A stretch of DNA of 8,714 nucleotides, taken from the NCBI GenBank assembly GCA_001784175.1, contig MFPR01000007.1, forward strand, positions 1 to 8,714, written 5' to 3'. The position numbers and the translations under genes were made by a program. Below, in pieces: positions 3,118 to 7,891 of this stretch. This DNA comes from Candidatus Lindowbacteria bacterium RIFCSPLOWO2_12_FULL_62_27 (GTDB lineage: Bacteria > Lindowbacteria > 2-12-FULL-62-27). Numbering within the stretch: position 1 is the stretch's first letter; every line of letters begins with the position of its first letter. Under the pieces are notes generated by a model. The model was given only the letters and a program-made list of their open reading frames with translations, did no database searches and had not been told where the DNA came from.

Positions 3118-4431
3118 TCATGCCCGGGGCCGGCCCATGGGCCGGACGATATACGTCGTAATGCCCTCCGCCACTCCCTTCACCTTCAGGCCCTCGCGCC
3201 GCTCGACGCTTGCGGGATCCGGCGGCGGATTCACGCGGCGAAACGACTCCTGCCCGAGCTGGATCGCATCCACGGGGCAGGTCGATTCGAGCCGCTGGGC
3301 CACGTTGACGGCCGAACCGACGCAGGTGAAGTCGCGCCGGGAGGACATGGCCCCGATGTCGCCCTGAATCACGGGGCCGGTGTTGATCCCGATGCGGATG
3401 TGAAACGCATCGGGATCGTTCTCGCGCAAGGCCGTCAACCGCGCCTGCATCCCGCATGCGGCCGCGAAGGCGGCGGTCGCGCCACAATCCTCTTCCCCTT
3501 CGAAAACGGTCATGATCGCGTCCCCGATGAACTTGTCAATCATGCCGCCGTTGCGGGTCACGATCGGCGCCATCTCCTCCAGATACCGGTTGAGCCGCCG
3601 GACGATCTCGGCCGCGGGCGTCGTCTCGGTGAGCGGCGTGAATCCGGCCACGTCCGAGAAGAGGATCGTCATCTCCCGGCTTCGGGCGGCGCCCTCGTCG
3701 CTCCCGGTCGCCCGCCGATGCGCCGCCTCCCAGGCCGACTTCGGGACGTAGTGAAGGAGTTCGCGCTTCGCCCGCATGCCTTCGACGAGACGATTGAAGA
3801 TGGCGGCGAGATCGCCGACCTCGTCCTTTGTTCGAAGTTCGACCCGCACGTCGAGATCGTCGGACTCGAGACGTTTCATGCCGAACGCGAGCGTCGCGAG
3901 CGGCACGGTGATGCCCCGCGCGACGAGAATCGAGAAGAAGACGGCGACCAGAATCGCGACCGCCCCGAGCGTGACCGCGCGGCCGATGAGACTGCGGCGC
4001 GCGGCGTGCAGGCGCGTGGCGTCGAAGGCGACCTCGATCCGGCCGATCTCGCGGGGAGTCTCCCCGGGGGACGAAACCGTGATGGGGCGGACGACGCGGT
4101 GGGCGTCGGGCGGAACGGTCCCCCACTCGCTTCCCAGATCGAGCGTTTGCCCGTCGTCGCCCAGGACCGAAATCGATCGAAGGTCCCCGTACACCCGGCC
4201 GATCTCGCGCAGGACTTCGCGCGTGTTGTCCGGATCGATCACCTCGTTGGCGAGGAGCGTCTCGAGGAGCACGGGAGAGAGCGTGGTCGCGAGCGCCTCC
4301 GCGGATTCCCGGTACCGCGTCTCGATCGCGGCGCGTTCTCTTTGATAGTTCACGAAAAGCGTGAGCGCAGTCCCCTCAAGAATTCCGACCACGAGGATGG
4401 CCGCGATCTTGTGCCAGAGCCTGATTCTCAT
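3118..4431 (-). CDS. Membrane-bound class III adenylate cyclase with HAMP domain
   Basis: The 437-residue protein makes cAMP from ATP. It has TM1 at about 8-28, a periplasmic sensor of about 120 residues, TM2 at about 150-171, HAMP at about 172-223 and the catalytic domain from about 250. Metal-binding aspartates are in FSDVAGFT (Asp260) and FIGDA (Asp304). Lys300 and Asp367 (RRDFTCVG) are the ATP-specifying pair. Asn376 and Arg380 in VNVAQR are the transition-state residues. All are present, so it should be active as a homodimer. I chose the ATG at 4431 over upstream in-frame starts because it overlaps the TGA of the lipoprotein gene (ATGA), and because the extra 62 residues would be arginine-rich shadow sequence before TM1. 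The periplasmic domain resembles a single-Cache/PAS-like fold. Coupling to a PhnD-like lipoprotein suggests the cyclase reads out its ligand state. Confidence 0.92.
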   Translation of the reverse strand: MRIRLWHKIAAILVVGILEGTALTLFVNYQRERAAIETRYRESAEALATTLSPVLLETLLANEVIDPDNTREVLREIGRVYGDLRSISVLGDDGQTLDLGSEWGTVPPDAHRVVRPITVSSPGETPREIGRIEVAFDATRLHAARRSLIGRAVTLGAVAILVAVFFSILVARGITVPLATLAFGMKRLESDDLDVRVELRTKDEVGDLAAIFNRLVEGMRAKRELLHYVPKSAWEAAHRRATGSDEGAARSREMTILFSDVAGFTPLTETTPAAEIVRRLNRYLEEMAPIVTRNGGMIDKFIGDAIMTVFEGEEDCGATAAFAAACGMQARLTALRENDPDAFHIRIGINTGPVIQGDIGAMSSRRDFTCVGSAVNVAQRLESTCPVDAIQLGQESFRRVNPPPDPASVERREGLKVKGVAEGITTYIVRPMGRPRA

Positions 4432-5315
4432 TCCGGAAGCCGCCCGTGTCCCGAGAGCGTGGCCGCGACCCGGCGTACCGTTACGAACTGCGTGTCCGAG
4501 ACCGCGCCGAAAGGATGCGGCGACCCGGTGCGCGCGTCCGGGGCGAGGAGCGCGGCGCGGATGCGCTCCGCGAGGGCGGGATCGCGCGCGAGGAAGGAGC
4601 GGGAGAAGGCGACGCACCAGTTCGGAAGGAGGGGCGTTTCGGCGATGATGCGCACGCGCGCGCGTTCCGCCTCCGGGACGTGGCCGGCATACGCATGCGG
4701 GTAGGTGAACCCGGCGTCGTACCGCCCCTCCTTCAGGTGGATCAGGACGTTGGCGTGCGACCCGACGCCCGTGAATGAGGCGAAGTCATGGAACGGATCG
4801 ATGCCGGCATCGAGGCACATCGCAAGCGGATAGAGGTATCCGGAGGCGGAGTGGAGGTCCACATACGCCACACGCCGCCCGCGAAGGTCCGCAAGCGTTC
4901 GGATATCGGGAGCGGCGGCGACGACGAGACCGCAGTACGACGTCGAATCATCCTGAATCGGCCCCGCGACCGGCTCGACCCCGGCCTCCTGCCGCGCGCG
5001 GACGTAGTCGAAGGGCGCGAGGTCGACGATGTCGTACGCATTCTCGCGCACACGCGCATGGAAAACCTGAGGATCCCCCAGAACCCGGATTCGGACGCGG
5101 ACCCCGATCCGCTCTTCGAGATAGTCGGCCCGCACCGCGAGGCTTCGCGCCATGCCGCGCAGGTCGAGACTGCTCGAGGCCATGACCACCACGGGAGCGG
5201 TTTCGGCGGTGTCGCGCGATGCGCCCCCGGTCGGATTCGGCGCGATCGGGCCGGGCGACGGCCCACAGCCGATGCAGGCGGCGGCGAGGACGCAGAGGAA
5301 GAATGTTTTAGTCAT
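4428..5315 (-). CDS. PhnD-like phosphate/phosphonate-type substrate-binding lipoprotein
   Basis: The 295-residue protein starts with a short signal peptide (MTKTFFLCVLAAACIGCG). The lipidated cysteine is most likely Cys14 (AAAC) or Cys17, and a Pro/Gly/Thr-rich linker runs to residue 40. The rest is a periplasmic-binding fold of the PhnD type (PF12974-like). It shows YDIVDLAPFDYVRARQEAGV (94-113), DSTSY (123-127), RVAYVDLHSASGYLYP (148-163), GVGSHANVLIHLKEGRYDAG (183-202) and a final helix region. The SASGY and SHA segments and Asp200 line up with ligand-contacting loops of E. coli PhnD. The middle Thr of the PhnD STS motif is Ala here, so the ligand may differ. No ABC permease or ATPase is adjacent; the next gene is the coupled adenylate cyclase. 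A sensory rather than transport role is therefore inferred. A weak GGTGA precedes the ATG. Confidence 0.88.
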   Translation of the reverse strand: MTKTFFLCVLAAACIGCGPSPGPIAPNPTGGASRDTAETAPVVVMASSSLDLRGMARSLAVRADYLEERIGVRVRIRVLGDPQVFHARVRENAYDIVDLAPFDYVRARQEAGVEPVAGPIQDDSTSYCGLVVAAAPDIRTLADLRGRRVAYVDLHSASGYLYPLAMCLDAGIDPFHDFASFTGVGSHANVLIHLKEGRYDAGFTYPHAYAGHVPEAERARVRIIAETPLLPNWCVAFSRSFLARDPALAERIRAALLAPDARTGSPHPFGAVSDTQFVTVRRVAATLSGHGRLPE

Positions 5316-5343
5316 GGCACGTCACCCAACAACACCGGGCGAT

Positions 5344-5425
5344 TGTCCCCCGTGGCCGGCTGAAATCAATCCCGGAAAAAGACGTATTTTCAGAGATAAA
5401 TTCGTCTTACATGGCGAGTTTGGGG
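5344..5425 (-). promoter_or_regulatory. Palindrome-rich upstream element, copy B, between lipoprotein and XRE genes
   Basis: This lies in the 162-bp divergent intergenic region, 28 nt upstream of the lipoprotein ATG. It aligns without gaps with 520-601. The first palindrome (5377-5390, AAAAGACGTATTTT) has one changed pair. The second (5398-5421) keeps the right arm GGCGAGTTT exactly while the left arm is degenerate (AAATTCGTCTT). Position and symmetry suit an operator for the divergent XRE protein, possibly controlling both directions. A mobile intergenic repeat is the alternative. Confidence 0.5.
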
Positions 5426-5477
5426 CCTTCGCCGGGACTATCGAAACCGTTCGAAAAGAGATAGGGTGGAACCTGCC

Positions 5478-5864: not shown

Positions 5865-5898
5865 AGAAGCTCGCGGGAGATCTCTTCCATCTCGACCC

Positions 5899-5933
5899 TG
5901 CGGGTCACGATCGGCTCCATCTCCTCCAGATAC
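5899..5933 (-). repeat. 35-bp echo of the adenylate cyclase gene
   Basis: This matches 3552-3586, inside the cyclase catalytic domain, at 34 of 35 bases in the same orientation. On the minus strand it reads YLEEMEPIVTR, against YLEEMAPIVTR in the cyclase. The flanks do not continue the cyclase. It sits just after the XRE gene. It may be a relic of a second cyclase gene or a short templated insertion. It is too short to be functional as protein. Confidence 0.75.
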
Positions 5934-7055: not shown

Positions 7056-7891
7056 TTATCTCGCGCCTTCTATCGCCCCCACTTTCTTCGTGAGTGCGTC
7101 GATCTGCGCCTGTTGTTCCTGAACCACCGTTTGCAATTTGTCGTTTGCCGCCTTCTGCTCCTTGACGGCGTTCAGCATAGCCCAGATGATGGGATCGTTG
7201 TCGAGCATCAGGTAGCCCTTGTTGCTGGACGAGATCGCGGCGGGAATCGCCTCCTGGACCTCCTGGGCCACAAGGCCGATATGTTCGGCGCGGTCGCGGA
7301 TGCCGGCGCCGTTTTCCTTTTTGTACCGGTATCGCACGGGATTCAGTTTCATGACCGCGTCCGTCCCGGGCGTATAAGCGCCTTCCACGTCCTTGAGCCG
7401 CCCGTCCGAAAACGTCGCCCACGATCCGCCGCCGACCTTGGACGCGCCGCCGTTGACCGTCAAGGTCGTATCCGGCGACACCGTGCCGATTCCGACGTTG
7501 CCGGAAGCCAAGATATTAACGCCATTATTCTCGTTGGGAACACCGGTGCCTGTCCCGACGACTAAGATAAGCCTGGTGTCGTTGAAGCGGATGTCAGCAC
7601 GGTTGGAGGCGGAGCCGAATCCGCCGCCAAAGATGAACCCGGAGTTGCCGTGGGGTTCGTAATCCGGATGTCCCCGCCCGTCCCACCGGTGGCGAAGTCG
7701 GCAGAACCGTTCACTGATAGGAGACTCGCGGGCGAGTCTGTCCCGACTCCGACCTTGCCGCTCTTTAATACAACCAATCGCGTATCTCCCACCGCAAGCG
7801 AATCCGAAACCAGGACACTGCCTACGACATCCAGTTTCCCCCCCGGCGCCGTGGTCCCGATGCCGAAGTTCCCCGAGAGGGCTAAGGCCAA
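7056..7891 (-). pseudogene. S74 endosialidase-chaperone (tail-fibre-like) protein, 5'-truncated and frameshifted
   Basis: Two minus-strand frames join into one protein of about 278 residues. It has three repeats (GNFGIGTTAPGGKLDV, GKVGVGTDSPASLLSVNG, GNVGIGTVSPDTTLTVNG). The S74 intramolecular chaperone domain follows with SDGRLKD (Ser/Lys self-cleavage site), LNPVRYRYKKE, HIGLVAQEVQEAIPA and GYLMLDNDPIIWAMLNAVKE. A C-terminal coiled coil follows (KLQTVVQEQQAQIDALTKKV). The frame changes at a GGGG run (7652-7655 on plus); one extra G would give ITNPHGNSGFIFGGGFG continuously. An in-frame TAA lies 5 codons before 7891 and there is no ATG or ribosome site, so the N-terminus is gone. S74 domains trimerise and release tail-fibre-like or surface beta-helical proteins. 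The 3' TAG of the DUF5615 gene overlaps its truncated 5' end. Confidence 0.82.

Follow-up and report, generated by a model that had tools for sequence, protein, structure and literature searches.

The 8.7-kb window analysed here, which is an entire contig (C7, MFPR01000007.1) of a 4.39-Mb genome that is 94% complete, encodes a PhnD-like lipoprotein and a membrane cyclase that together probably form a solute-binding-protein-dependent cAMP receptor, built like AioX-AioS or YfiR-YfiN and with cAMP as the output. We propose that the lipoprotein, anchored in the membrane and facing the periplasm, would bind a small, probably oxyanion-like or phosphonate-like, ligand and close. In one ligand state, it would dock on the outer domain of the cyclase dimer, which is Cache-like and ~120 residues long; the second helix and HAMP would then carry the signal to the class IIIb cyclase, and the changed cAMP level would be read by cNMP-binding proteins. 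Of this model, we infer the physical contact, the ligand, the direction of control (on or off), adenylate as opposed to guanylate activity, and the downstream target. If the model holds, cAMP would be a further output that bacteria connect to solute-binding proteins.

The features of the pair are listed in Table 1. The first-pass annotation had described a PhnD-type lipoprotein and a HAMP cyclase with its catalytic residues, joined by an ATGA, without an ABC permease or ATPase nearby. Profiles, reading frames and alignments bear this description out: both reading frames are open and complete, and nothing in the 8.7-kb contig was recognised as an ABC permease or ATPase. An Rfam search of the window gave no match, and a scan for sigma-70-type promoters upstream of the pair found none.

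Table 1 Features of the lipoprotein-cyclase pair and its upstream region in the window.
Feature	Position	Strand	Remark
PhnD-like (PF12974) solute-binding lipoprotein, 295 aa	4428..5315	-	likely lipid-attachment Cys17; profile match
Membrane class III (IIIb-like) nucleotidyl cyclase, 437 aa	3118..4431	-	TM1, outer sensor domain, TM2, HAMP, catalytic domain
ATGA stop-start overlap	4428..4431	-	cyclase ATG overlaps lipoprotein TGA
Cyclase outer sensor domain, ~residues 28-152	3976..4350	-	remote match to sCache_3-type domains of other PhnD-paired receptors
Cyclase catalytic domain, ~residues 247-437	3118..3693	-	profile and alignment
SAS motif, residues 156-158, of the oxyanion-binding S-x-S...H pocket	4842..4850	-	translation and alignment
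Intergenic region between the lipoprotein gene and a divergent XRE regulator	5316..5477	.	one copy of a dispersed ~100-bp repeat (5333-5425)

Profile searches of the cyclase identified HAMP at residues 169-220 (41.6 bits) and Guanylate_cyc at residues 250-429 (80.4 bits). Two hydropathy peaks, at residues 9-27 and 152-171, flank an outer segment of ~120 residues, and the solute-binding protein gene thus adjoins a receptor whose outer domain is enclosed by two transmembrane segments. Pfam gave no direct match for the outer domain; against sensor regions from other receptors paired with PhnD-like proteins, hhalign returned a probability of 94 (E 9e-8) in one comparison that included the transmembrane segments. 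The residues of class III cyclases (PF00211) are present, with D260/D304 for metal binding, K300 for the substrate and N376/R380 for the transition state according to the CyaB alignment, while alignment with 3r5g gives K300/T369 as the substrate pair. A Lys/Thr substrate pair is the class IIIb adenylate cyclase pattern. On these aligned residues, the window cyclase appears class IIIb-like, with adenylate activity favoured over guanylate activity. D367 was considered as the adenine-specifying Asp and rejected, since the alignment and the pattern of the family put T369 in that place. The genome holds ~30 cNMP-binding matches and several further class III cyclases, which makes a cAMP network plausible.

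The lipoprotein belongs to PF12974 (159 bits, E 1.8e-46; curated cut-off 27 bits). It scored below the cut-offs of TIGR03431, which describes PhnD proper (68.6 vs 261.1 bits), and of TIGR01098 (96.6 vs 112.05 bits), and is therefore a member of the PhnD family and not PhnD itself. The signal peptide ends in ...CIGC17, and the equivalent Cys of the relatives lies in GVGC and LTGC, the latter being a canonical lipobox. The closest solved structure is PtxB (5o2j, E 4.8e-16), and pocket residues were placed by alignment with it and by published pocket descriptions (PMC5700983, PMC5908839). In this alignment, S156, S158, H187 and the hinge residue Tyr127 are kept in the window protein, as in all three proteins of its family (lineage 1), and correspond to Ser161, Ser163, His192 and Tyr131 of AioX. 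In contrast, Pro82 and Ala100 differ from AioX Tyr88 and from the arsenite-associated AioX Cys106. The first-pass annotation had taken Ala157, which replaces Thr in the SAS motif, as a hint at the ligand. The motif was read correctly, but the hint is weak because SAS is shared by four signalling-linked proteins and an ABC-linked one. Better hints come from the census alignment described below, where, of 33 ABC-linked rows, 29 have Tyr in the lobe-1 column of Pro82, and Tyr (12) or Asp (11) prevails in such rows at the column of Trp233; they suggest a ligand other than phosphite or 2-aminoethylphosphonate. Since Pro82 replaces an otherwise conserved Tyr, ligand binding itself may be altered, and the ligand may vary inside the family, as the relative in genome G001 has Tyr and Ser at the columns of Trp233 and Pro82, respectively. 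AlphaFold2 models built on shallow alignments were unusable (pLDDT 34 for the lipoprotein alone, 37 for the cyclase with one relative).

The first-pass annotation had made its reading depend on conservation of the pair in relatives. We found the pair in all three family genomes examined, which are drafts, overlapping each time and with otherwise different flanking genes, and again in a second lineage; the pairing is thus beyond chance. In G002 (L023, JACQOF010000029.1), the lipoprotein is 93% identical over 215 residues and the cyclase 81%, the ATGA is kept, and the flanks differ. In G001 (L032), identities are ~32% for the lipoprotein and ~33% for the cyclase including its sensor domain, and the overlap reads GTGA; the cyclase is split here across two contigs that carry the same sequence at their ends. 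A scan of genome contigs returned one relative only, and a plasmid search only distant PhnD records.

As assembled, G002 carries a 106-bp frameshifting deletion in the lipoprotein gene (L023 824-1611) next to an open cyclase frame. Either the loss is recent or the assembly is wrong at this point, and the cyclase may persist without the lipoprotein. The deletion also speaks for a decaying module, in which the lipoprotein disappears and the cyclase acts by itself. We regard this as highly improbable, as both genes are intact in the window and in G001 and the codons compared between the window and G002 are under purifying selection (dN/dS of 0.21 over 215 codons for the lipoprotein and 0.29 for the cyclase). 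Divergence between these two genomes is uneven along the pair: dS is 0.78 and identity 69% for the catalytic domain vs a dS of 0.16 for the lipoprotein and sensor half, the sensor half being 92% identical. The pattern looks as if one lineage had taken up another catalytic domain. Gene conversion from a paralogue was considered as its origin and rejected, as no close paralogue was seen in the three genomes.

When the cyclase alignment was used as query against 386 genomes, full-length sensor coverage was confined to lineage 1 among the matches listed, and a PF12974 protein lay directly upstream at three of the other cyclase loci among these matches. Together with their relatives, these three loci gave a second lineage of seven loci in six genomes (G258, G121, G384, G387, G389 and, with two loci, G388), in which a PF12974 protein is paired with a Cache-HAMP-class III cyclase; both lineage-2 cyclases scanned have sCache_3-type domains, and three of the PF12974 proteins scored 78, 76 and 50 bits. 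The tree joins the G001 lipoprotein to lineage 2 (SH-aLRT 87), a grouping flagged for long branches and compatible with one or two origins alike. Taken as a whole, we lean slightly towards the view that class III adenylate cyclases of at least two lineages are under the direct control of PhnD-like proteins, and that lipoprotein and sensor of lineage 1 are a conserved cassette whose catalytic domain has been exchanged. A further PhnD-paired HAMP protein (L077 4763-5713) has an sCache_3 domain and no recognised output domain.

All three lineage-2 PF12974 proteins aligned have lost the S-x-S-H pocket, and binding of the usual ligands is thus not needed for pairing with a cyclase. This loss would also suit a ligand-independent regulator that, like YfiR, holds the cyclase inactive or active by direct contact and answers to the state of the envelope and not to a solute. 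Pro82 in the place of the lobe-1 Tyr points the same way, as does a weak YfiN match of the cyclase N-terminal part (E 4e-4). In YfiR-YfiN (YfiBNR), as in the model proposed for the window pair, a HAMP cyclase with two TM segments is controlled via its outer domain by a protein of the periplasm; however, the YfiN product is c-di-GMP, and YfiR is not a PF12974 protein. Against such a regulator, which we consider unlikely, stands the pocket kept in the three lineage-1 proteins.

To place the lipoprotein among its homologues, we compiled a census of 146 PF12974 domains from the strongest matches of a longer list and three lineage-2 rows, with duplicates removed. The sample is broad but confined to the strongest matches, and partner genes were recognised with small models built from the same loci, so that the proportions are only indicative. 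Signalling partners, either neighbouring or fused, account for 82 of these domains: 71 lie beside genes of the histidine kinase, GGDEF, HAMP or MCP kinds, five are fused to MCP parts and six adjoin class III cyclases, the last count not being a frequency because the lineage-2 rows were entered for their cyclase. ABC genes adjoin 32, and another 32 have no recognised partner. In this sample, PF12974 proteins beside signalling genes are common and not exceptional, and annotation by PF12974 alone therefore misleads. The window protein falls into a 43-row branch (SH-aLRT 87) with 30 signalling-linked and two ABC-labelled rows, of which L157 has a GGDEF gene as a neighbour too. On the tree, only five changes are needed for the signalling and ABC labels, with the window protein on the signalling side. 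In this strongest-match census, the column of AioX Cys106 holds Cys in 17 of 82 signalling-linked and in none of 32 ABC-linked proteins (Fisher p 0.003, ignoring kinship), and those with Cys are possible sensors of thiophilic ligands.

The first-pass annotation had also named as a refutation that a phn-type ABC transporter of the genome uses this lipoprotein; neither this check nor that of conservation refuted its reading. No match to the PhnE permease was found anywhere in the 94%-complete genome by a search that was positive in 13 of 14 controls, and the PhnC-like ATPases that exist all score under the family cut-off. ABC ATPases are nevertheless numerous, and the two genes might only be co-transcribed, with the lipoprotein serving a distant or promiscuous ABC transporter or scavenging. 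Given the genome without a PhnE match, the overlap and pairing conserved despite different flanks, and the tree position of the window protein, we hold this to be very unlikely. A sensory and not a transport role is well supported by the absence of PhnE, the conserved coupling, the census and the tree position.

A receptor served by a PhnD-like protein has precedents with other outputs. AioX is a PhnD-like sensor protein serving a kinase, and in the arsenic-oxyanion sensors AioX-AioS-AioR, ArxX and ArrX, the gene of a PhnD-fold protein lies beside that of a membrane receptor, as in the window, and the protein functions in sensing, not transport (PMC5908839). The Aio output is an adjacent histidine kinase with a response regulator, whereas the window partner is a cyclase. 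In the Phn and Ptx ABC importers, which include the structurally closest PtxB, the binding protein has the permease and ATPase partners that the window lacks, and a capping Tyr where the window protein has Trp233. TtrS/ThsS-type histidine kinases carry PF12974-type sensing domains. They likewise use a PF12974-type protein for sensing but have a histidine kinase output and no separate lipoprotein with a class III cyclase. The name PF12974 appears in a paper on sensors of thiosulfate and tetrathionate (PMC5408782). Pairs with the same logic as that of the window, consisting of adjacent PhnD-like and HAMP-GAF-GGDEF proteins, occur at L001 (G000:C43) and L042 (G001:C60); they differ in their diguanylate cyclase output, and the pocket His is not kept. 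L001 holds the second PhnD-like protein of the window's genome, placed immediately ahead of the HAMP-GAF-GGDEF protein, and one genome thus pairs PhnD-like proteins with cAMP- and c-di-GMP-type outputs. In PMC9602780 and PMC11113362, the receptors described as activated by solute-binding proteins are chemoreceptors, sensor (histidine) kinases, Ser/Thr kinases and c-di-GMP enzymes; adenylate cyclases are not among them. Our search of the open-access full-text literature found no pair of PhnD or a solute-binding protein with an adenylate cyclase, and an earlier description may exist elsewhere. Adjacency is not proof of interaction, as the solute-binding protein PA4985, which is encoded near AruS, was negative with AruS in a two-hybrid assay (PMC11113362).

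Several minor features of the window were observed. Behind the XRE gene, at 5888-5932 (-), a 15-residue scrap (YLEEMEPIVTRRVEM) resembles YLEEMAPIVTRNGGM of the cyclase, with 46 bp repeated at 87%, and is possibly a remnant of another cyclase. A ~93-bp repeat occurs in two copies that are 81% identical (509-601 and 5333-5425), the second directly upstream of the lipoprotein gene, with further copies at G000:C34:17288-17391 and G002:C121:12380-12483. Two other dispersed repeats of 60-65 bp (92-98% identity) lie at 625-689/1797-1861 and 6417-6476/8556-8615. Finally, 7056-7511 (-) encodes a Peptidase_S74 (endosialidase chaperone) protein, and a GVGT-type sequence is repeated in neighbouring frames.
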